Shown piece after piece: positions 5,113 to 46,249 of a stretch of 48,336 nt of DNA. The DNA is from Patescibacteria group bacterium (GTDB lineage Bacteria > Patescibacteriota > Minisyncoccia > Moranbacterales > GWC2-37-73): positions 1-48,336 of the forward strand of contig JAKLIO010000004.1 in the NCBI GenBank assembly GCA_022709565.1, in the 5' to 3' direction. Position 1 is the stretch's first letter. Every line of letters begins with the position of its first letter. The notes beneath the pieces were generated by a model. The model made no database searches, was not told the origin of the DNA, and saw nothing but the letters and a program-made list of their open reading frames with translations. A program made the position numbers and the translations under genes.

Positions 5113-5559
5113 ATGAAACAGAAATTAAAAGTCGGAGAAGATTGTGTTGGTGTTGGAGGGGGCGTTTTAATTTTTAATAAAAAAAGGGAAATTTTTTTGC
5201 AAAAAAGAGGAAAAAAATCCAGAAATGAAGTAGGCAAATGGGAGAAGCCGGGTGGAAGAGTTGAATATGGAGAAACTGCTGTTATGGCAATGAAGAGAGA
5301 AGTAAAAGAAGAGACAGGATTAAATATAAATATATGGGGTTATCTTCCGCATACTGATCATATCATCAAAAAACAAAAACAACATTGGGTAGCTTTTAAT
5401 TATTTGGCTGATATTAAATCAGGAAAAGCTGAAAATAAAGAACCTCATAAATTTGATGAAATAGGCTGGTTTAATTTGAAAAACTTGCCTAAAAATATAG
5501 CTCAACCAACAAGAGAGGCGGTAAAGAATTTTAAAAATGGCAAATATATAAAATTATAA
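5113..5559 (+). CDS. Nudix hydrolase
   Basis: The 148-aa product carries a complete Nudix box at residues 48-70: G, five residues, E54, seven residues, then REVKEETGL. The family hydrolyses nucleoside diphosphates linked to another group, and the glutamates bind magnesium. The strand before the box (GVLIFNKKREIFLQKRG) and the PHTDHIIKKQKQHWVAFNYLAD stretch after it fit the general ADP-ribose/oxidised nucleotide group, but the substrate cannot be told. It lies between murA and mreB with short, repeat-like spacers and no Shine-Dalgarno sequence. It is one of three Nudix domains in the window. Confidence 0.88.
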   Translation: MKQKLKVGEDCVGVGGGVLIFNKKREIFLQKRGKKSRNEVGKWEKPGGRVEYGETAVMAMKREVKEETGLNINIWGYLPHTDHIIKKQKQHWVAFNYLADIKSGKAENKEPHKFDEIGWFNLKNLPKNIAQPTREAVKNFKNGKYIKL

Positions 5560-5619
5560 AATTTGTAATTAGAAATTGATTCGAAATTCAAAATTCGAAA
5601 TTCAAAATTCTTAGATGGT

Positions 5620-6697: not shown

Positions 6698-7852
6698 ATG
6701 AAAATTGGTATCGATGCTTCCCGGGCATTTCTAAAAGACAGGACGGGAATTGAAGAATATTCATATCAAGTTATAAAAAACCTTGCAAAAATAGAAGGAG
6801 AGCAGGCCCGCCTCGCGTCGACGAGCGGTCATCTCCGCGAGTCGAGGCGGGTTGTTTTATATTTGCGCAAAAATCAAGAAATAGATTTTACTTTGCCAAA
6901 TAATTGGAAAGTCAAAATTATAAAGTGGCCGAGGTTTTGGACGCAGTTTGGTTTGTCTTTAGAAATATTTTTGCATCCGGTTGATGCGCTTTTTATTCCG
7001 GCGCACACGGTACCATGCATTCATCCTGCCCGCACAATAGTTACGATTCATGGTTTGGAATATGAATTTTGTCCAGAGGCTTATTCTTTTTGGGAACGGT
7101 TGTATATGCGCTCAACGATCAAAAAATCATGCAAGTGGGCGAGCAAAATAATCGCTGTGTCTGAAAACACAAAAAAAGATTTGATAAAATTATACAAAGT
7201 ACCGGCAGATAAAATCGAAGTGATCTACGAAGGATATGAAAATAGTAATCAGCAACCAGTAATCAGTAACCAGAAAAATACAGAAAAAGAAAACAGTTAC
7301 GAGTTACGGGTTACGAGTTACGGGAGTTATTTATTATTCATTGGTCGTCTTGAGGAGCGCAAGAATATTGTCGGCATTATCAAATCTTTTGAAGTTCTGA
7401 AAGAGCGCTACAAGATTCCGCACAAACTGGTTTTGGCGGGGAAGCCGGGATTCGGATATGAAAAAATAAAAAATGAAATTGCCAATGTGAATTGCGTGAA
7501 AGATATCATTGAAACAGGATTTGTGAGCGCGGAAGAAAAAAATTATTTGCTAAATAATGCAGCTGTGTTTGTTTTCCCGACTTTATACGAAGGTTTTGGT
7601 TTGCCGATTTTGGAAGCGCAAAATGCCGGCGTGCCGGTAGTGGCTTCTATAGAAGCTTCTATTCCTGAAGTGGCAGGGGATAGCGCGCTGCTTGTTGATT
7701 CCAATAATGCCGAAGAAATTGCTGATGCGGTTTATAAAATTATTTCTGACAAAAATCTAAAAAAAGACCTTGTTCGAAAAGGCCTTGAAAATATCCAGCG
7801 TTTCAGTTGGGAAAAATGCGGAAAGGAAATCGCGGATATTTTAAAAAAGTAA
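6698..7852 (+). CDS. Family GT4 glycosyltransferase carrying repeat-derived insertions
   Basis: The 384-aa GT-B enzyme probably transfers a sugar from a nucleotide donor to a surface glycan at the inner face of the membrane. The N-terminal domain begins MKIGIDASRAF with RTGIEEYSY. The C-terminal donor domain has LLFIGRLEERKN and the GT4 signature EGFGLPILE followed by AQNAGVPVV. Two parts look foreign. Residues 37-52 are coded by a 45-bp hairpin element (6807-6851). Residues about 180-210, in the linker between the two domains, are coded by tandem words (GTAATCAGCAACCA and ACGAGTTACGGG). Both keep the frame and neither touches the core motifs, so the enzyme is probably active. Donor and acceptor are unknown. 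Confidence 0.88.
   Translation: MKIGIDASRAFLKDRTGIEEYSYQVIKNLAKIEGEQARLASTSGHLRESRRVVLYLRKNQEIDFTLPNNWKVKIIKWPRFWTQFGLSLEIFLHPVDALFIPAHTVPCIHPARTIVTIHGLEYEFCPEAYSFWERLYMRSTIKKSCKWASKIIAVSENTKKDLIKLYKVPADKIEVIYEGYENSNQQPVISNQKNTEKENSYELRVTSYGSYLLFIGRLEERKNIVGIIKSFEVLKERYKIPHKLVLAGKPGFGYEKIKNEIANVNCVKDIIETGFVSAEEKNYLLNNAAVFVFPTLYEGFGLPILEAQNAGVPVVASIEASIPEVAGDSALLVDSNNAEEIADAVYKIISDKNLKKDLVRKGLENIQRFSWEKCGKEIADILKK
6807..6851 (+). repeat. 45-bp hairpin repeat element, copy 1 (in frame inside a glycosyltransferase gene)
   Basis: The 45 bases fold as outer stem CCCGCCT/AGGCGGG, a five-base bulge CGCGT, stem CGAC/GTCG, tandem GA/GA mismatches, stem GCGG/CCGC and a six-base loop. A second copy lies at 42087-42131 in prmC, where the inner stem is GCAA/TTGC, so both sides changed together. 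The length is a multiple of three and adds 15 codons without a stop. Confidence 0.85.
7236..7325 (+). repeat. Tandem short-word repeat inside the glycosyltransferase linker
   Basis: The stretch contains repeated words of the type AGTAATCAGCAACC and AGTTACGAGTTACGGG. The AATCAG/AACCAG word also occurs in the spacer near 27665-27695 and twice within prmC (around 42078-42160 and 42571-42601). Here it codes for Asn/Gln/Ser-rich residues between the two domains of the enzyme. Confidence 0.6.
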
Positions 7853-9125: not shown

Positions 9126-10292
9126 ATGGAAAAACCAAAAATAGCTTTGGTGCATGATTTTTTACTCTATCCTGGCGGGGCGGAGCGGGTTTTGAAGGTG
9201 CTTGCAGACATGTATCCCGAAGCGCCGATTTATACGTTGCTTTATAATGAGGAAAAAATAGGGGATATGTTCAAGGGCAAGGATATTCGGCCTTCATATT
9301 TGCAGAAATTTCCTAAATTTCTCAGAAAACACTACCGCTGGCTGTTGCCTTTTTTTCCGGTCGTACCGGAAACTTTTGATTTTCGGGAATATGATCTGGT
9401 CATTTCTTCTTCAGGCGCTTGGACCAAAGGAATTGTGACAAAACTGGACACGACGCATGTGGCCTATCTGCATTCGCCGATGCGTTTTGTTTGGGATTAC
9501 AATGAAAAATATTTGAAAGAGCAGAAAAAGAAACCCGGTTTTTTTCTGAAAATGATCCTAAATTATTTGCGGGTTTGGGATCGCTTGGCGGCGGAACGCC
9601 CGGACTATATTATTGCGAATTCGCGTTACACTCAGAAACGTGTTGCTAAGTATTATAGACGAGAAAGCGTTGTAATTTACCCCCCGGTAAATAACAATGA
9701 CAAATTTCCAATAACAAATGACAAATCAAATCATAATGACCAAATTTCAAATGACAAAAAAAATACGAAATACGAAATACCAGATACGAAATACTTTTTG
9801 ATAGTATCAAGGCTTTCTTCGTACAAAAAAGTTGATGTTGCCGTTGAAGCTTTCAATAAGCTGGGTTTGCCATTGGTCATCATTGGACAAGGAAGCCAAG
9901 AAAAATATTTGCGGAAAATTGCCGGTGAAAACATAAGAATATTGGGCTGGCAGAATGATGAAACTACTCGGAAATATTTTCAAAACGCGCGCGCTTTCAT
10001 TTTTCCTTGTGAGGATGATTTTGGCATTGCGCCGGTGGAAGCTATGGCTCACGGCGTGCCGGTCGTGGCTCTTCGAAAAGGTGGAGTTTTGGAAACGGTT
10101 CAAGAGGGAATTACGGGCGAATTTTTTGACGCGCAAACCCCGGAAGTTTTAGCTGACGGAGTGAGGCGTTTTATGTTGAATGAAAATAAATACGACAAGA
10201 ATGTCATTAAGGCGCGTGCGCAGGAATTTTCGGAAGAAAGATTCAAAAGAGAGTTTTCTGATTTTGTTGAGAAAATAACAAACAAAAAATAA
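9126..10292 (+). CDS. Family GT4 glycosyltransferase (WbaZ-like mannosyltransferase type)
   Basis: The 388-aa GT-B enzyme starts with IALVHDFLLYPGGAERVL and has the acceptor-side stretch YLHSPMRFVWDYNEKYL, typical of the WbaZ/mannosyltransferase branch of GT4. The donor domain shows FLIVSRLSSYKKVDVA and EDDFGIAPVEAMAHGVPVVA with the E-x7-E pair. Residues about 189-222, between the two domains, are coded by TGACAAAT-type words and CGAAATAC repeats also seen in spacers, so this linker is probably a repeat insertion. The enzyme likely adds a hexose to a lipid-linked surface glycan in the cytoplasm; the exact sugar is not known. It lies 117 bp before holB. Confidence 0.88.
   Translation: MEKPKIALVHDFLLYPGGAERVLKVLADMYPEAPIYTLLYNEEKIGDMFKGKDIRPSYLQKFPKFLRKHYRWLLPFFPVVPETFDFREYDLVISSSGAWTKGIVTKLDTTHVAYLHSPMRFVWDYNEKYLKEQKKKPGFFLKMILNYLRVWDRLAAERPDYIIANSRYTQKRVAKYYRRESVVIYPPVNNNDKFPITNDKSNHNDQISNDKKNTKYEIPDTKYFLIVSRLSSYKKVDVAVEAFNKLGLPLVIIGQGSQEKYLRKIAGENIRILGWQNDETTRKYFQNARAFIFPCEDDFGIAPVEAMAHGVPVVALRKGGVLETVQEGITGEFFDAQTPEVLADGVRRFMLNENKYDKNVIKARAQEFSEERFKREFSDFVEKITNKK
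9695..9795 (+). repeat. Spacer-type word repeat in frame inside a glycosyltransferase gene
   Basis: Words such as TGACAAATTTCCAA, ACAAATGACAAATC and ATACGAAATACGAAATAC match the fold-back spacers at 539-666 and 34819-34946. Here they are translated into an Asn/Asp/Lys-rich linker without a stop codon. Confidence 0.65.
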
Positions 10293-10408
10293 TTTTTGAA
10301 TTTTGTAATTTTATAATTTTTAAATAATGTTTTAATTTTTAATGTTTAAAAATTTAGAAATTAAGATTTATTTATAAAATTAAAAATTGGAAATTAAAAA
10401 TTTAAACC
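10293..10408. repeat. AT-rich fold-back spacer of the 'AATTTTCAATTTT/AGAAATTAGAAATT' type
   Basis: The spacer between the glycosyltransferase and holB runs from AATTTTTGAATTTTGTAATT words on the left to TTAGAAATTAAG, AAATTGGAAATTAAAAATT on the right. The same arrangement occurs at 36481-36616 and 46109-46249. No gene or promoter is evident in it. Confidence 0.5.
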
Positions 10409-28203: not shown

Positions 28204-30690
28204 ATGAATGCTATAGATTTTAATGTATTTTTAGTTCCACTCGCTTGGATTTTTTCGGCCACAGCTTTTTTCAGTGGCCTTTTCTTGGTTGTGAAAAGTT
28301 TTCTTAATTATCGGGCGCAAATCAATCGTTCCATGAATATGGACCTGGAGATTGTGCGGGTTACTAAAATTTTTAAGGACAAGAATGAGGCTACCAGTTC
28401 CAACCCGGAAGCCTGGAAGGAAGAAATAGGAGCCATGGAACAGCTTTTTACGACTCTCTCAAATATAAATGAAAAAAAGTCTTTTCTGGATCGCTTGCTT
28501 TATAGCGAACCGTACATTGCTTTGGAAATTGCCAATCCATCCAACAATGAAGAAATATGTTTCTATCTTTCGGTGCCGAAAAAATTCCGGGAAAGCATTG
28601 AAAAACAGATCAATAGCTTTTTCCCTAATGCTTCGATTGAAAAAATTCCGGATTATACGGTTTTTTCTCCGGGCAGTTTCACTGCTTCAGCCACATTGAG
28701 ACTCAAAAAAAGTTATTCTTTGCCGATTCGTACCTACGAAGACATGAATGTGGATCCATTGCAGGAAATTTCCAATTCTCTTAGTAAACTAAACACCGAA
28801 AACGAGGGCGCGGCTATTCAATTGGTCTTGCGGCCGGCCGGCAAGGAGTGGAGAAACCAAGGCAGAAGCATTGCCCACAGGATGCAGCAAGGAAAACAGC
28901 TGAAAGACGCTCATTCCAGCTCGGTAGCTATTGAATTGGGTAAAGGCATGGTTCAGGTTATTCAAAACAAGCCGAATGAAAAAATAATGGAAAAGGAGGC
29001 AGTTCAACTGACGCCTGAGGAACAGGAATTAGTAAAAAGAATCGAAAGCAAATCCAATAAGGCCGGCTTCAATGTTAACATCAGATTGATAGCTTCGGCC
29101 ATGTCGCAGCAGCGTGCTGATGAAGTCCTATCACAGTTGGAAAATGCTTTTTCACAGTTTGAAAATCACGAAATAAATTATTTTATAGTCCAAAAGAGAA
29201 TCAAAGAAAAGAAAATAGTTTTTGATTATATTTTCCGCAATTTTGATGAAGAAAATGCTGAAATTTTATCTACCAATGAAATAGCCAGTATTTTTCATTT
29301 CCCAATTTCCACAACAGAAACTCCAAAGATAAAGTGGCTCAAAGCCGGAGCCGCGCCGCCGCCGCTAAATATTCCCAAAGAAGGCGGAATTAAGTTGGGA
29401 TACAATGAATATCGCGGCACTAAAACCGACATTCGTATTTCCGATGTTGATCGCCGCAGGCATCTCTACACTATTGGTCAGACAGGTGCCGGTAAATCGA
29501 ATTTCTTGCAGGAAATGGCCAAGCAGGACGCAATCAATGGTAAGGGTTTCTGTTTTATTGATCCGCATGGCGATGCGATTGAAGATATTTTGACGGCAAT
29601 TCCAAAAGAGCGCGCTGAAGATGTGATTATTTTTGACCCGTCCGATGTCGAAAGGCCTTTCGGGCTCAACATGTTGGAATATGATCCGGCCTTGCCGCAG
29701 CAAAAAACATTCGTGATTAATGAAATGATAGGAATATTTGATCAATTGTATGATCTCAAAGCGACTGGCGGTCCGATGTTTGAACAATATGTCAGAAACG
29801 CCATGCTGCTCATCATGGAAGACCCCGAATCTGGCTCGACATTGATGGAGATTTCCAAAGTCCTGGCTGATGAAGATTTCCGCCGCATGAAACTTTCCAA
29901 ATGCAATAATCCGGTGGTTGTTGATTTCTGGGTTAAGGAAGCAGAGAAGGCCGGGGGAGAAGCGGCGCTGGCCAACATGGTGCCATACATCACTTCTAAA
30001 CTCACAACCTTTGTTTCCAACGATATGATGCGTCCGATCATCGCGCAGCAGAAAAGCACGCTGAATTTTCGAGAAATCATGGATGGCGGAAAAATCTTCC
30101 TGGTGAAACTTTCTAAGGGAAAAATTGGAGAAATAAATGCGCATCTTTTGGGCATGGTCATTGTGGGCAAGATTTTGATGAACGCTTTAGCGCGCAGCGA
30201 CACGCCGGAAGATCAGCGCAAAGATTTCTATCTGTATTTGGATGAGTTTCAAAATGTCACGACCAATTCTATCGCGCAAATTCTTTCTGAAGCTCGAAAA
30301 TATCGCCTGTGCCTGACGATTGCGCATCAGTTTATTGGACAGCTCAAAGAAGAAATTTCCAAAGCTGTGTTTGGCAATGTTGGTTCGATGGTAGCGTTCC
30401 GAGTGGGTCCGGAAGATGGAGAATTTTTGCAAAAACAATTTGAACCGATTTTCACTTCCAATGATTTGGTGAATGTGGACAACTACAATTGTTTTGCGAG
30501 AGTTTTGGTGAACAGCGAGCTTTCCAAACCGTTCAGCATGAAAACCTTTCCGCCGACCAAGGGCAATCAGGAAGTTGCTAACTATCTCAAAGAACTTTCA
30601 CGCCTCAAATACGGCCGGGATGTTAATATTGTGAACAGAGAGATTATGGAACGGGCGAAGTTTGCAAGGCAAGCACCAGATAGCTTGTAG
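28204..30690 (+). CDS. VirD4/TraG-like type IV secretion coupling ATPase
   Basis: The 828-aa product has one membrane segment near its start (about residues 10-35), a 350-residue N-terminal part of unknown fold, and a RecA-like ATPase domain. The domain shows Walker A GQTGAGKS (about 425-432), FCFIDPHGDA, Walker B YLYLDEFQN (about 676-684), and SEARKYRLCLTIAHQFIGQL, typical of VirD4/TraG and of bacterial TraG-like ATPases that feed DNA or protein to a membrane channel. No VirB4, relaxase or pilin gene is visible in the window, so full conjugation is not shown. In Patescibacteria such ATPases are common chromosomal genes. It ends the cluster that begins with the DHH-like protein. Confidence 0.85.
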   Translation: MNAIDFNVFLVPLAWIFSATAFFSGLFLVVKSFLNYRAQINRSMNMDLEIVRVTKIFKDKNEATSSNPEAWKEEIGAMEQLFTTLSNINEKKSFLDRLLYSEPYIALEIANPSNNEEICFYLSVPKKFRESIEKQINSFFPNASIEKIPDYTVFSPGSFTASATLRLKKSYSLPIRTYEDMNVDPLQEISNSLSKLNTENEGAAIQLVLRPAGKEWRNQGRSIAHRMQQGKQLKDAHSSSVAIELGKGMVQVIQNKPNEKIMEKEAVQLTPEEQELVKRIESKSNKAGFNVNIRLIASAMSQQRADEVLSQLENAFSQFENHEINYFIVQKRIKEKKIVFDYIFRNFDEENAEILSTNEIASIFHFPISTTETPKIKWLKAGAAPPPLNIPKEGGIKLGYNEYRGTKTDIRISDVDRRRHLYTIGQTGAGKSNFLQEMAKQDAINGKGFCFIDPHGDAIEDILTAIPKERAEDVIIFDPSDVERPFGLNMLEYDPALPQQKTFVINEMIGIFDQLYDLKATGGPMFEQYVRNAMLLIMEDPESGSTLMEISKVLADEDFRRMKLSKCNNPVVVDFWVKEAEKAGGEAALANMVPYITSKLTTFVSNDMMRPIIAQQKSTLNFREIMDGGKIFLVKLSKGKIGEINAHLLGMVIVGKILMNALARSDTPEDQRKDFYLYLDEFQNVTTNSIAQILSEARKYRLCLTIAHQFIGQLKEEISKAVFGNVGSMVAFRVGPEDGEFLQKQFEPIFTSNDLVNVDNYNCFARVLVNSELSKPFSMKTFPPTKGNQEVANYLKELSRLKYGRDVNIVNREIMERAKFARQAPDSL

Positions 30691-30727: not shown

Positions 30728-30755
30728 AAAAAACGGCTTAATTTAGCCGTTTTTT
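30728..30755 (+). terminator. Rho-independent terminator of the ATPase cluster
   Basis: AAAAACGGCT/AGCCGTTTTT with a six-base loop TAATTT and a T-tract. It lies about 40 bp behind the VirD4-like gene. Confidence 0.85.
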
Positions 30756-30765
30756 AGGTGCACTA

Positions 30766-30794
30766 TTGACTTTTTGATGATTTTAGTGTATAAT
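30766..30794 (+). promoter_or_regulatory. Strong sigma70-type promoter without a gene
   Basis: TTGACT (30766-30771), a 17-bp spacer and a perfect TATAAT (30789-30794). No open reading frame follows; a terminator-like hairpin comes only about 35 bases after the predicted start. Confidence 0.7.
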
Positions 30795-30800
30795 TAAAAA

Positions 30801-30857
30801 GTAGTGTAAAATTTGAAAATAGATTTTAAGCCGCTGTAACTGTTCAGGCGGTTTTTT
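30801..30857 (+). ncRNA. Candidate very short RNA (about 57 nt)
   Basis: The predicted transcript from the promoter at 30766-30794 would contain about 30 AT-rich bases and then a hairpin (AAGCCGC/GCGGTTT, with CTG/CAG inside) followed by seven T. It has no start codon with a useful frame. It may be a small regulatory RNA or a decoy/attenuator unit. It is not similar to a known RNA that I can name. Confidence 0.4.
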
Positions 30858-30891
30858 TATTCTTAATTTTTCTTTCCGAAAATTCAATAAT

Positions 30892-31057
30892 TAACTTTTC
30901 TTTCTAGGATAAGAAAAGTTACAAAAGAAAGTCGCGCCGGATGAAGATACTGATGGCAAGCGCTTCGTTCTTCGCTAAAATTTCAATTCCGCTTCGCTCC
31001 TCACAAAATTTTTCAACGCTCATCACTCGCGCTTTGCCTACGTACTTCATATGGCGC
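30892..31057 (+). repeat. Structured repeat element, type A, copy 1
   Basis: It consists of a small hairpin (AACTTTTCTT/AAGAAAAGTT), a linker ACAAAAGAAAGTC and a long imperfect palindrome from GCGCCGGATGAAG (30934) to CTTCATATGGCGC (31057). The copy at 41744-41908 differs by one deletion and one substitution. The complement of the type B elements shares the core CGCTAAAATTT and ACGCTCA..CTCGC, so A and B belong to one family. The region 30756-31304 holds no convincing gene; it contains this element, a type B element and the short RNA candidate. Confidence 0.85.
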
Positions 31058-31092
31058 CTATAAAATGCGTCTTCTATATTTTGCATTTCTCT

Positions 31093-31273
31093 GCACCCTA
31101 TGAATTTCGTCAGCAAATTTAGGCAAGTGCGCGTTAAGAAATTTATCTGTCTGACCCCGACTTGTCGGGGGAGTTATAAATTTTAGCGAGCGAGCCTAGA
31201 ATTTGCCTCAGAAATTCATCGGGGTGCAAGTTTCTTTTCTGTCCACTTTTCTTTTGAAAGAAAAGTGGGCGAA
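31093..31273 (-). repeat. Structured repeat element, type B, copy 1 (opposite orientation to type A)
   Basis: A long palindrome runs from GCACCCTATGAATTTC (31093) to GAAATTCATCGGGGTGC (31227), with inner stems AGGC/GCCT and CCCCGAC/GTCGGGG. It is followed by the small hairpin CCACTTTTCTTT/AAAGAAAAGTGG (to 31273). Compared with copy 2 (41531-41716), several stem positions changed on both sides. Read on the minus strand, it has the same order as type A: small hairpin, linker, long palindrome. Confidence 0.85.
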
Positions 31274-31304: not shown

Positions 31305-31336
31305 AAAAAAACAGACCTATCTGGGTCTGTTTTTTA
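31305..31336 (-). terminator. Rho-independent terminator of the PP2C-like gene
   Basis: AAAAAACAGACC/GGTCTGTTTTTT with a six-base loop lies 17 bp after the stop of the minus-strand gene at 31353, with T-runs on both strands. Confidence 0.75.
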
Positions 31337-31352
31337 AAGTCATAAATTAAAT

Positions 31353-34019
31353 TTACAAGCTGATGGCTAGAATTTCATTTAAAGTCGAAACATAGGCGGT
31401 TTTATTGGCTTCATCAATCGAGAGGGAAGTGCCATACTTGAATTCCTCACTGAAATATTGAGCCGTAATCCCGCCGTTTTCTTTGCTGTATTGAACTAAG
31501 CGGCTGTTTTTAGCATCCAGAACATAGAGCGACTGCGAATCGATGGTTGTGAAAATTTTGTCAAAATTAACCGGTGTGTTGGAATTTTCCAGATTAAATT
31601 CCTGTTTTTTGCCTTTGAATAATTTGAAAACCGTGTTGTTTTGAATGCAATAAATATTATCATCAATTGCTATATCGGAAATTCCGGCAAGCGAGGTTGC
31701 ATCCTTGAGCCAACTTGTCCTAGCTCCAAATCCGCCGGTTGCTCGCGGATAACGATAAATTTGGTTAGCTTGGCTGTCAAGAACATACAAATATGTCAGA
31801 TATGTGCCAATAAGATTTCCGGATGGATTGGCGGGCAGTTCGATGCTGTCTTCAGTGAATTTTGTAGATACAGGACTGAAAGAAATAATTTTGTTTTTGT
31901 CAGTCAGGATGAAGACAAGCGACAAATCTTTCATATATGAAACACGGACAGTCGCACCGGAATTTTCCGGGAAAGCATATTCCCGCTGATCGTTTTTGTC
32001 TACCATAAGGACACTATTTTTCGTGACAGCCGCCAAACCCTTGCCGGTAACAGTCATGTGGATTATGCCGCTTTGCTCAGCAAGTATCTGGATTTCGGGA
32101 GAAAGATTGATATTTTTTTCATTAGCCAGGATTTCGGACGGAGTGACAACCGGAGCAACTGGTGTTTCTGCTACCGGCTGCGATTCGGTTTTATTTAAGG
32201 AACGTGCGATGAAAATCGGGACGATAAAAATAAGGATAAGCGCGGCAATGGATCCCGCTTTTTGCTTCGTGTTTAATGACAGAAATTTTTCTTTGAGGCG
32301 GGGGATAAAAGAAACTTTTTCTTCCGCATCTTCTGTCCATCTTTCATATTCTGGTTCCTCTTCTGATTTTGACTTTTTGATTTTCTGGGCGATTGATTTG
32401 GTTTTCTCCAAAAATTGAGAAGAGAAGACGGATATTTTTTCTTTTATTTTAGCCAAAACAGGCATTATTTTTTCTTTCCAACTTATTTTTTCCGTCTCAG
32501 CTTCATTTGTGATTTCTGGTTCAGCGAGAGATTCGTCCGCGACATTTTGATCAGGTTCTTTTTTGTAGTGCCTCATGGCTAGATCAAGTTTTTCCTTAAA
32601 ACTGAGTCCTCCGCTTTGCGTCGGAAATTCTTCTGTCTGGTCGTCAAAAATTTCTTCATCGGTCGGCTCGGCTGTTTCCGGGATGACCAATTTTTCTGTT
32701 TCTTCTTCCGCTTTTTCCTGCAAAACTTTTTCTTCTTCCAGTTTTATTTGGCGTTCTTTTTCCAAAGCTTCTTCCCATTCTCGCAGTTTGGCTTCTTCCG
32801 CTTCTTTGGCTTTCTGCGCTTCCAAGCGCGTGGCTTCTTCGGCAGCTTTGTGCTCTTGTTCTTCAAGACGCAAAGCTTCCTGGGCGGCTTTTCTTTCCTG
32901 TTCAATAATTTTTTTCTCAGCCGCAATCTTAGCCTGTTTTTCTTTTTCGATGCGGCGCAGTTCCTTTTTCTTTTCAAGCTCTTTTCTATATAGCGCCATT
33001 TTTCTTCGCAGGCTGTTTTTTGCTGAATACCAAACTTGCAATATCTTTTCCTTAGTCATATCCCAATATATGTTGGCTTTCTCAATTTTACCGGATTCAC
33101 CCGCTTCGCCTTGAACGTAGATATGGCCCGTTTTCTCATCCGTATATTCCGAATTGTTTGCTTCGTCGGTTGTTTCTATTTCCAATTCTTTTTCAGGAAC
33201 AGCTGGCTGCTTCTTTGTTTTAGCATCGGTAAATGTTTTTTCACTAAAAGCGTTTAGGGCGGCGGCGGATTTTTTCTTTTGAATTGGCATTTTTACCTCA
33301 CTGGTATTTTTTGTTTCTTTCATTTCCACAATAATAGAGGCTATCAGTTCAAGCTGATTTGAAAGGGCTGTTTTTAAAAATTGGACAAATTTTTCGCCTT
33401 CAAAACGCTGGAAATTTTTCTTAATTTCAGCTTCTGAAAAAATATGGAAAATATCTTCGGAGGTTATGAGCATCCGATCATCTTTCTCCAATCTTCCGCT
33501 GGAAACATTCAAAAATGTCTTGAGAGGATGCGGCTCAAGCGAATCTGAAGCGAGACCGTCGCTTATGTTGGAAAGTGCGCCATTTCTAAAAATAAACATT
33601 TTGGCATTGCCGCTGACGCTGAAATGGGCGTTGTTTTTTTCCAGCACGCAAATGGCAGCATTGAGATTGCCGAGCCATTCCACGTTGCCCTGTTTGGCAA
33701 GTTCAGAAAGAGCAATGTTAACCTTGTGCAGAGCGCTGTCCAGACTTTCGGCAACTGGACGCTTGGGGTTTATGTAATATTCTTTCTTTAATACGGATGT
33801 TAAAAAATTTACAATATAGGCGGAATTTTCACTGTATTCTTTAACTTCGAAAAAACCAATGAGCGAGCCAAGCGGTTGCTGGTAGATGTTTTCAGGATAG
33901 TATTCAAAAAGCTCCACATATGGTTTTAATGAGGAATTGTTGACGACTAAAACGGGAGAAATTTTATTTTCTAATTCTTTGATCACGTCTTTTTTATTTT
34001 CATTATTTCTTGGGGGCAT
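31353..34019 (-). CDS. Membrane protein with degenerate PP2C-like domain, coiled coil and C-terminal propeller-like domain
   Basis: The 888-aa product has four parts. Residues 1-260 resemble a PPM/PP2C phosphatase fold (SLIGFFEVKEYSENSAYIV, LGNLNAAICVLEKN, VSGNAKMFIFRNG, DRMLITSED), but the GDSR-type metal motif reads GNAK, so activity is doubtful. A Glu/Lys/Ala-rich coiled coil follows (about 340-460), then a charged linker, one membrane segment near 600-620 (IAALILIFIVPIFIA) and an outside domain of repeated beta strands (YLYVLDSQANQIYRYPRA, SLYVLDAKNSRLVQYSKE) like a propeller. I chose the ATG at 34019, because the -10 box of its promoter lies inside the longer frame that starts with TTG at 34094. 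It is convergent with the VirD4-like cluster. Confidence 0.72.
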   Translation of the reverse strand: MPPRNNENKKDVIKELENKISPVLVVNNSSLKPYVELFEYYPENIYQQPLGSLIGFFEVKEYSENSAYIVNFLTSVLKKEYYINPKRPVAESLDSALHKVNIALSELAKQGNVEWLGNLNAAICVLEKNNAHFSVSGNAKMFIFRNGALSNISDGLASDSLEPHPLKTFLNVSSGRLEKDDRMLITSEDIFHIFSEAEIKKNFQRFEGEKFVQFLKTALSNQLELIASIIVEMKETKNTSEVKMPIQKKKSAAALNAFSEKTFTDAKTKKQPAVPEKELEIETTDEANNSEYTDEKTGHIYVQGEAGESGKIEKANIYWDMTKEKILQVWYSAKNSLRRKMALYRKELEKKKELRRIEKEKQAKIAAEKKIIEQERKAAQEALRLEEQEHKAAEEATRLEAQKAKEAEEAKLREWEEALEKERQIKLEEEKVLQEKAEEETEKLVIPETAEPTDEEIFDDQTEEFPTQSGGLSFKEKLDLAMRHYKKEPDQNVADESLAEPEITNEAETEKISWKEKIMPVLAKIKEKISVFSSQFLEKTKSIAQKIKKSKSEEEPEYERWTEDAEEKVSFIPRLKEKFLSLNTKQKAGSIAALILIFIVPIFIARSLNKTESQPVAETPVAPVVTPSEILANEKNINLSPEIQILAEQSGIIHMTVTGKGLAAVTKNSVLMVDKNDQREYAFPENSGATVRVSYMKDLSLVFILTDKNKIISFSPVSTKFTEDSIELPANPSGNLIGTYLTYLYVLDSQANQIYRYPRATGGFGARTSWLKDATSLAGISDIAIDDNIYCIQNNTVFKLFKGKKQEFNLENSNTPVNFDKIFTTIDSQSLYVLDAKNSRLVQYSKENGGITAQYFSEEFKYGTSLSIDEANKTAYVSTLNEILAISL

Positions 34020-34064
34020 AGGCCTTATAGCGTATATAAAAACACCCCGTTTTTCTTCCTTAAT

Positions 34065-34094
34065 AATATAGCAATTTTGCTCTATATGCAACAA
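34065..34094 (-). promoter_or_regulatory. Probable promoter of the PP2C-like gene
   Basis: On the minus strand TTGTTG (34094-34089), an 18-bp spacer and TATATT (34070-34065) precede the ATG at 34019 by about 45 bp. It is back-to-back with the promoter at 34106. Confidence 0.5.
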
Positions 34095-34816: not shown

Positions 34817-34818
34817 TA

Positions 34819-34946
34819 ATGTCAAATTTCCAATGACTAATGACAAATCAAATCCTAAATCCAAATGACAAATTTTTATTTATTTGAAATTTGGTTTTTG
34901 ACATTGATTTGACATTGGAAATTAGTCATTTGTCATTTTAAGATTC
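34819..34946. repeat. Fold-back spacer repeat of the 'TGACAAAT' word type
   Basis: Left words TGTCAAATTTCCAATGACT and CTAATGACAAATCAAATC face right words TTTGACATTGATTTGACATT and AATTAGTCATTTGTCATTT. It resembles the spacer at 539-666. No promoter or gene is evident in it. Confidence 0.65.
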
Positions 34947-36480: not shown

Positions 36481-36616
36481 AATAATTTTCAATTCGCAAT
36501 TTTCAATTTTCAAACAATTTACAATTTTTCAATGTATCAATTTTTTTAAAATTTTAAAAATTTAATCATTAGAAATTGTTTAGAAATTAGAAATTAAAAA
36601 TTAGAAATTTACTATT
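36481..36616. repeat. AT-rich fold-back spacer of the 'CAATTTTCAATTTT/AGAAATTAGAAATT' type
   Basis: The left half has TTTCAATTCGCAATTTTC and CAATTTTTCAATG; the right half has AGAAATTGTTTAGAAATT and AAATTAAAAATTAGAAATTT. The order and many words match the spacer before tsf (46109-46249), so these are two members of one dispersed family. Confidence 0.7.
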
Positions 36617-41487: not shown

Positions 41488-41530
41488 TGTTATTGATTTG
41501 TATTTTGTGTCTAGTGTTTTGTATTTATCA

Positions 41531-41716
41531 GCACCCTATGAATTTCGTCAGAAAATTCAAGCGAGTGAGCGTTAAGAAATTTGCATGTTTGAGTCCCGAT
41601 TAATATCGGGACGAGTTTGTAAATTTTAGCGAGCGAGCTTAGAATTTGCCCCAGAAATTCATCGGGGTGCAAGTTTCTTTTCTGTCCGCTTTTCTTTTGA
41701 AAGAAAAGCGGGCGAA
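41531..41716 (-). repeat. Structured repeat element, type B, copy 2
   Basis: The long palindrome from GCACCCTATGAATTTC (41531) to ATTCATCGGGGTGC (41670) has inner stems AAGC/GCTT and TCCCGAT/ATCGGGA, and is followed by the small hairpin CCGCTTTTCTTT/AAAGAAAAGCGG. At each of these stems copy 1 (31093-31273) has a different but again complementary pair. Here the small hairpin faces the neighbouring type A element, whereas at the first locus the small hairpins point outward. Confidence 0.85.
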
Positions 41717-41743
41717 GATTTTTAGAAATTATAATGTGTCTAC

Positions 41744-41908
41744 TAACTTTTCTTTCTAGATAAGAAAAGTTACAAAAGAAAGTCGCGCCGGATGAAGATA
41801 CTGATGGCAAGCGCTTCGTTCTTCGCTAAAATTTCAATTCCGCTTCGCTCCTCACAAAATTTTTTAACGCTCATCACTCGCGCTTTGCCTACGTACTTCA
41901 TATGGCGC
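41744..41908 (+). repeat. Structured repeat element, type A, copy 2
   Basis: Almost identical to 30892-31057 over 165 bases. It has the small hairpin AACTTTTCTT/AAGAAAAGTT and the long palindrome GCGCCGGATGAAG (41785) to CTTCATATGGCGC (41908). It ends 37 bp before the stop of the minus-strand prmC gene. Confidence 0.85.
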
Positions 41909-41945
41909 ATTTAAAATGCAAAATCTAAATTTGAAGTGGTGTAAA

Positions 41946-42887
41946 TTATAAAACAATCTTGCAAATTCGCCATTTGCCGGCCAAGTCTTTTGCAAAAAAT
42001 ATTTTAGCCTGAGGAAGAATATTTCTGATTAATTTTTCCAGCGGCCGTTTTTGCTCGGGGCTGAATTCTAGTAATACAGTAATCAGCCCGCCTCGCGTCG
42101 ACGAGCAATCGTCTTTGCGAGTCGAGGCGGGCAACCAGCAATCAGCAACCAGTATTTTTTTTATTTGCTTTAATAATTTTGTGTAATGTTGCAAGCCTTG
42201 CTCGGAACTGTATAGGGCGGATTTTGGTTCGTATTTTTTGACATTAATCGGAGCTGACTTATAAATTTCTTTGGAAAGATAGGGAAGATTGGCCACAACC
42301 ACTAACGTGGAATTTTCGATTTTCAATTTACAATTTTCAATAAACGGCGATAATAAATCGCCGTTAAGAAACATTATTTTTTTATCCACATTGTGAATTT
42401 TAGCGTTCTTCTTGGCAATTTTCAAAGCTTCATGGCTAATATCAGTTGCAAAATATTTTATTGTTTTTTTGATGCATGCTGCATGTTGCATGCTGTATGC
42501 TATTGAAATGATTATATTTCCGCTTCCTGTGCCTACATCTATAATAGCGGTTTTTAAATTTCTTTTTTTGCTGATTGCTGATTGCTGATTACTGATTACT
42601 GTATCTACAAGCAGTTCTGTTTCTGGGCGGGGGATTAGGTTATTTTCATTTACCATAAAATCCAAACCGTAAAATTCTTTGTGTCCGACTATATACGCAA
42701 TCGGTTCCCCCTTCACTCTTCTTCTGATATTTTTGCTGATTATTGAATTTTGCCTGCTGTTTACTGAATATTCCGGATACGTTAAAATAAATTCTCTCGT
42801 TTTATTGAGAGAATGGGCTAATATAAGCTCCAAATCGATGTAGTCGATTTTGGCTGAATATTTTTTTATTATTTCCTGAATTTGCAT
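41946..42887 (-). CDS. prmC: Peptide chain release factor N5-glutamine methyltransferase PrmC, with repeat-derived insertions
   Basis: PrmC methylates the GGQ glutamine of release factors using S-adenosylmethionine. The 313-aa product has the N-terminal helical part, the hinge GEPIAYIVGHKEFYGLDF, the motif IIDVGTGSGNI and the catalytic-site NLPYLS (NPPY in most PrmC). The target prfA lies 75 bp upstream on the same strand. The protein is about 35 residues longer than usual, and the extra parts match repeats found elsewhere: about residues 96-107 (AATCAG words), 130-138 (GCATGC words), 181-193 (AATTTTCAATTTAC words) and 243-267 (AACCAG words plus the 45-bp hairpin element). All keep the frame and lie in probable surface loops. 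Confidence 0.9.
   Translation of the reverse strand: MQIQEIIKKYSAKIDYIDLELILAHSLNKTREFILTYPEYSVNSRQNSIISKNIRRRVKGEPIAYIVGHKEFYGLDFMVNENNLIPRPETELLVDTVISNQQSAISKKRNLKTAIIDVGTGSGNIIISIAYSMQHAACIKKTIKYFATDISHEALKIAKKNAKIHNVDKKIMFLNGDLLSPFIENCKLKIENSTLVVVANLPYLSKEIYKSAPINVKKYEPKSALYSSEQGLQHYTKLLKQIKKILVADCWLPASTRKDDCSSTRGGLITVLLEFSPEQKRPLEKLIRNILPQAKIFFAKDLAGKWRICKIVL
42087..42131 (+). repeat. 45-bp hairpin repeat element, copy 2 (in frame inside prmC)
   Basis: Same fold as 6807-6851: CCCGCCT, bulge CGCGT, CGAC, GA, GCAA, loop TCGTCT, TTGC, GA, GTCG, AGGCGGG. Relative to copy 1 the inner stem changed from GCGG/CCGC to GCAA/TTGC on both sides, plus one loop base. It lies in the opposite orientation to the host gene, unlike copy 1. 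AATCAG/AACCAG words flank it on both sides. Confidence 0.85.
42571..42601 (-). repeat. Tandem short-word repeat inside prmC
   Basis: The plus strand reads CTGATTGCTGATTGCTGATT and continues with ACTGATTACTG. This is the complement of the AATCAG/AGTAATCAG words seen in the glycosyltransferase linker (7236-7290) and in the spacer near 27670. It codes for SNQQSAIS. Confidence 0.65.
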
Positions 42888-46108: not shown

Positions 46109-46249
46109 AAACAAAATTTTCAATTCACAATTTTCAATTTTCAATCAAGATTTCATTTTTCAATTTTTCAATGTTTTAAATATTTAGTCATTAAAACATT
46201 GTAAATTGTTTAGAAATTAGAAATTGGAAATTAGAAATTTAAAAAAGTT
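46109..46249. repeat. AT-rich fold-back spacer between rpsB and tsf
   Basis: TTTTCAATTCACAATTTTC and CAATTTTTCAATG on the left, TTAGTCATTAAAACATTG in the middle and TTTAGAAATTAGAAATTGG on the right. The order is nearly the same as at 36481-36616. The fold-back could slow transcription or protect mRNA between rpsB and tsf. Confidence 0.7.

Follow-up and report, generated by a model that had tools for sequence, protein, structure and literature searches.

REP and REPIN elements are defined as palindromes of 20–40 bp tagged at one end with GTAG or CGTC; the CGTC REPs, too, apparently have no transposase of their own, and how repeats move without a RAYT is a question open for them as well (PMC3733652). 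The Moranbacteria family described here resembles REPs, BIMEs and REPINs in consisting of short non-coding palindromic spacer repeats, present in tens of copies, with inverted pairs and with subfamilies that carry complementary arm changes (PMC3733652, PMC3116915). Its unit, however, is several times longer (~165 versus 20–40 bp) and less numerous, and combines a side hairpin with a long bulged palindrome that has an invariant inner core. The unit ends are a TAAC... hairpin and ...GGYGC, with no GTAG or CGTC end tag seen and no linked RAYT. MITEs are likewise non-coding, non-autonomous, dispersed and palindromic, but no terminal inverted repeats were seen bounding the Moranbacteria unit, whose small hairpin lies at one end only. 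No target-site duplication was seen, the flanks being too diverged to read one, and no related autonomous element was found among the Y1, Y2 and IS110 families searched. Integron attC sites share the freedom of the arms and the retention of a fold and a few positions, whereas the present copies are scattered singly or in pairs, with no cassettes and no integron integrase in 39 genomes. The element works like a REP/BIME or a MITE, but it fails membership of the REPs.

The window, a 48,336-nucleotide stretch of a genome of Ca. Moranbacteria, contains two loci with the repeat. Locus 1 (30892–31273) combines a plus-strand copy of type A with a minus-strand copy of type B, located at 30892–31057 and 31093–31273 as an earlier note had it. 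The A copy (A1) begins with a small hairpin, TAACTTTTCTTTCTAG-GATAAGAAAAGTTA (30892–30921), a motif found ahead of most copies. This is followed by a purine linker, CAAAAGAAAG (30922–30931), which holds extra palindromes in some copies, and by an imperfect palindrome of 126 nt (30932–31057) with arms GCGCC..GATGAAG and CTTCAT..GGCGC. Inside it are the two halves of the invariant core, CGCTAAAATTT (30973–30983) and AAATTTTTCAACGCTC (31006–31021), both of which belong to the order-wide consensus of 34 divergent representatives. After an AT-rich spacer (31058–31092), of which the flank motif occurs beside most copies, B1 runs on the minus strand as a 137-nt imperfect palindrome (31093–31229) whose apical loop contains an extra inner hairpin, CCCCGAC-TTGTCGGGG, together with a purine linker, ACAGAAAAGAAAC (31230–31242), and a small hairpin, CCACTTTTCTTTC-AAAAGAAAAGTGG (31243–31268). 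As also claimed previously, no protein gene fits the elements; the ORFs across them are short palindrome artefacts.

Locus 1 occupies the spacer between two convergent genes, one encoding a TraG/TrwB-like coupling ATPase (28204–30690) and the other a 913-aa protein without an assigned family (31353–34094). Terminator-like hairpins with T-runs, read from the sequence, lie between each flanking gene and A1 or B1 (~30728–30757, 30826–30860 and 31308–31340); a consensus scan did not flag them. Just upstream of A1, window 30766–30860 contains a near-consensus promoter (TTGACT-17-TATAAT) with a GC-rich hairpin and T-run ~30 bases further on, which may constitute a very short RNA gene.

The second pair, expected from the earlier note some 10 kb away, is at locus 2 (41517–41932), though with the order swapped. 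Here B2 comes first on the minus strand (41531–41711), with a 142-nt imperfect palindrome (41531–41672) and a small hairpin (41686–41711), followed on the plus strand by A2 (41744–41908), with a small hairpin (41744–41772) and an imperfect palindrome (41783–41908), so that the hairpins face inward. Because of this reversal, A and B do not form a fixed composite unit. Opposite-orientation pairs are frequent in the host but not obligatory: many copies are single, and paired copies may have their hairpins outward or inward.

A covariance model (R1) built from 18 type-A cores only scores 143.2 bits on A1 and 145.4 bits on A2. It also matches B on the opposite strand, at 31093–31229 (55.6 bits, E ~1e-9) and 41531–41672 (61.4 bits), as well as type C copies in the host. 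Thus, A and B represent the two orientations of a single family, and this part of the earlier note is confirmed. The host genome, 67.6% complete, has at least 17 R1 matches in 742 kb, which disposes of the possibility that only the two loci exist and stem from one segmental duplication. Beyond the host, the suggested covariance-model search of relatives found copies at E ≤ 0.001 in 35 of 131 genomes of the order, including 18 of the 19 in the host's family, with the remainder in two other families; G012 has up to 17. The exact core pattern occurs on 36 contigs of GTDB genomes, of which the informatively titled ones are Moranbacteria or Parcubacteria/Patescibacteria and some are named only 'uncultured bacterium'. 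Among 287 genomes sampled across the phylum Patescibacteria the host is the sole carrier, with the exact core in none of the other 286. Viral contigs, phages and plasmids were searched and contained no copies, and a viral or plasmid origin was rejected. No Rfam family matched at its gathering score, and sub-threshold matches to miRNA models were taken as chance. The family is real and, as far as the literature searched on Moranbacteria repeats, Patescibacteria MITEs and the sequence words of the element shows, undescribed.

In A orientation on the plus strand, or B orientation on the minus strand, the unit of ~165 bases comprises the small hairpin TTTTCTTT/AAAGAAAA, an AAAGAAA linker and an imperfect, bulged palindrome of 125–145 nt. 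The small hairpin has a purine/pyrimidine consensus, YACTTTTCTTT/AAAGAAAAGTR, although some genomes have another module, CCACATTTCTTTTTCCCGCAAAAAGAAACCTGGAGG, or none. The inner core, CGCTAAAATTT...AAATTTYTTAACGCTC, hardly varies. In a set of 34 representatives that share less than 75% identity, the near-invariant part extends over TCGCTAAAATTT ... AAATTTYTTAACGCTC and encloses an apical loop that varies, while the two arms are free in sequence; apical-loop modules are common to copies with different arms. In the host's family, most copies are followed by an AT-rich motif, AAATGC / AAATACGAAATAC, in the flank. It probably lies outside the unit, since two host copies with identical cores diverge right after GGCGC. 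Individual copies have other small palindromes (for example, TCATCCAGAGGATGATCACCCTTTGGGTG; CACCCTCCGGGTATATATTGTCTGGACAAAAT...) nested within their linker or loop, and these differ even between orthologous copies. Such inserts are found in the linkers of L141, L143, L167, L055 and L061, in the apical loops of L142:1111-1307 and L208, and in an arm of L049.

The arms of the palindrome change in sequence while their pairing stays. Folded as DNA, the elements of the window beat dinucleotide shuffles with z-scores of -2.2 and -2.5 for A and -6.1 (B1) and -5.4 for B. In an alignment of 94 distinct sequences, standard pairing occupies 93.1% of pair cells (72.1% when shuffled), 22 of 23 pairs have double-sided changes (0 of 500 shuffles) and the covariation score is 0.469 (0.135 shuffled, 0.03–0.09 in slid controls), values that lean toward structure as the alignment was fitted to the model, with kinship among the sequences inflating the shuffle test. 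Seven pairs with double-sided changes are already present in an unfitted MAFFT alignment. That pairing is kept while arm sequence is free implies that something reads the fold, and the fixed core is probably the contact of whatever does so.

The placement of copies is also uneven. Among 80 copies with both neighbouring genes called, convergent spacers hold 24, divergent spacers 3 and co-directional spacers 53. The ratio of 24 to 3 compares with 29 to 28 in the host background (Fisher p 0.0007; p 0.0023 once paired copies are removed). This background represents the host alone, the gene calls rest on a simple ORF rule, and some of the copies are orthologous to each other. Copies avoid divergent promoter spacers and prefer those beyond gene ends. 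Their neighbours are mostly housekeeping genes unrelated to each other, including Trp/Tyr- and Cys-type tRNA synthetases, RNase J, RecR, L21, Dus, an M24 peptidase and PrmC; given this diversity, with no consistent gene among them, a linked gene was rejected. Reading frames resembling GIY-YIG endonucleases, read from DNA, adjoin elements in genomes of genus g7 (L026, L135, L145). The split between replication strands, 53 to 31 (p 0.02), is confounded with gene orientation and orthologous copies, and a bias as in IS200/IS605 was dropped.

Several observations point to mobility. The A cores of loci 1 and 2 are 99.2% identical in non-homologous flanks, and ~30 copy pairs have cores 96.5–100% identical where the flanks tested are without homology. 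At the extreme, cores are identical over 127 of 127 positions within the host and over 142 of 142 between two species, G011 and G017, again in non-homologous flanks. Even congeneric species do not always have the same copies. At G014:C45:29707 the element and its flanks are shared by G014, G006 and G012, whose orthologous copies differ by nested small palindromic inserts, while the position is taken by different sequence in G010, G016 and G018. The presence of two G014:C8 copies varies in G010 and G012, one spacer being filled in G014 and G012 and empty in G010. In spacer G014:C12:14436, G014 has a plus-strand copy, G010 has a copy in the opposite orientation beyond a terminator-like hairpin, and G006 has none. 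The relatives, which are ~70–98% identical around the sites and have mostly turned-over empty spacers, provided no cleanly empty site that showed a target duplication. One site in G013 and G015 retains the 3' arm alone as a deletion scar, so that absence does not by itself prove insertion and some absences may be deletions. Judged from these sequence comparisons, the opposite-orientation case and the identical cores are stronger evidence of mobility than presence or absence. The proposal of REP/BIME-like or MITE-like elements mobilised in trans is supported by the copy number, the near-identical cores in unrelated flanks, the variable orthologous presence and the inverted copy; membership of REP/RAYT proper is not supported.

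We consider it probable that the family is a short, non-coding, non-autonomous, structure-based mobile repeat of Ca. Moranbacteria, similar to REPs and MITEs. One strand would fold, either in single-stranded DNA, for which replication is the likeliest occasion, or as a cruciform. The fold and the core CGCTAAAATTT...AAATTTYTTAACGCTC would then be recognized by a trans-acting enzyme that copies or moves the unit, and copies would survive where they are harmless. A DNA element acting single-stranded is the best fit given the dispersal and the avoidance of promoter spacers. The strong compensatory change and the invariant core across families could instead reflect a host function. We regard it as unlikely that the family consists of dispersed structured RNAs, either small RNAs or 3'-UTR elements, with selection on the copies for an RNA function such as protecting or processing transcript 3' ends. 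The very strong covariation, the invariant core, RNA fold z-scores of -2.2 to -8.0, the siting beyond gene ends and the T-runs directly after some copies in another family all agree with this. Strong covariation does not discriminate, however, as it is also expected of a DNA element recognized by its structure. Wobble-type cells are rare (52 G-T and 29 A-C of 1977), so neither strand is clearly a folded RNA. Their asymmetry is weak and contradictory, with the outer stems slightly favouring the hairpin-first strand and the fold energies the other, and naming the folded strand in this way was dropped. Moreover, orientation relative to co-directional neighbours is only 32 to 21 (p 0.17), the element at locus 1 is beyond the terminator-like hairpins of both flanking genes (read from the sequence and not flagged by the consensus scan), presence varies between congeneric species and Rfam has no match. 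Fixed ancestral chromosomal sites, binding protein or organizing the nucleoid, kept alike by gene conversion and absent through loss, would account for apical-loop modules shared among copies with different arms and for the orthologous copies that persist between species. They hardly accommodate opposite-orientation copies in one spacer of sister species or identical cores at non-orthologous sites of different species, and we give this scheme little credence.

If the repeat moves, the enzyme is unlikely to be a Y1 (RAYT), Y2 or IS110 transposase, the three families searched alongside integron integrase. REP/REPIN elements proper, moved by a Y1 tyrosine transposase, would also be extragenic, palindromic, multi-copy and sometimes in inverted pairs, and the host does have a Y1 gene (G000:C23). 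Such repeats are expected often to flank that gene, but an element lies within 1.5 kb of only 1 of the 30 Y1 loci, and no Y1 was detected in G009, G011, G013, G015 or G017, which are 90–100% complete and have 2–10 R1 matches each; with the size and ends of the unit, this makes the REP reading very improbable and led us to reject Y1/RAYT mobilisation. Of 30 genomes, one has IS91-type Y2; this genome does not belong to the host's family, and Y2 was undetected in all 19 genomes of that family. IS110 exceeded the cut-off in 2 of 30 genomes and, in the host's family, only in G006 and G018. Scattered attC-like recombination sites, with the folded strand read by a tyrosine recombinase, would follow the same logic of free arms with fixed structure and core bases. 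Yet no TIGR02249 match to integron integrase reached the cut-off in 39 genomes, which have only generic tyrosine recombinases, as do all control genomes; no cassette arrays were seen and unrelated housekeeping genes flank the copies, so that we find such sites scarcely plausible.

For the preferred reading, a structure-based mobile repeat, a fuller version can be offered tentatively. The family may be lineage-specific mobile DNA that is read by its fold rather than its sequence, with arms drifting under pairing and the inner core fixed. In these ultra-reduced genomes, an enzyme outside Y1, Y2 and IS110, encoded by the host or unrecognized, might mobilise it, and its hairpins would repeatedly take in other small palindromes. 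CPR/Patescibacteria genomes are ~1 Mb, and to our knowledge few small mobile elements have been described in them. A repeat from this group that has no identifiable transposase, has persisted across an order and is maintained through pairing would offer a natural system for RAYT-free movement of structure-based repeats, and a defined core together with species that have full, empty and inverted sites makes the question directly testable.

The window also contains other repeats. A second AT-rich palindromic family of ~115–130 bp, of AAATTCGAAATTC type and matching both strands, is found at 5536–5609, 10297–10406, 36482–36609 and 46115–46243, and at L107:4110-4235; ~20 copies were counted in 347 kb of host sequence, and genomes of genus g5 have dozens. 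Two GC-rich palindromes, GCCCGCCTCGCGTCGACGAGC...CGAGTCGAGGCGGG, 89% identical and 35 kb apart (6806–6851 and 42086–42131), both lie inside called ORFs (6698–7852 and the PrmC-like 41946–42887), and a relative from another family (L039) has a similar motif. Degenerate tandem repeats of short period, AAATGACAAAT, AAATACGAAATACC and GCTGATTGCTGATT, occur in several spacers and one ORF (538–665, 9696–9790, 34818–34939 and 42551–42769).
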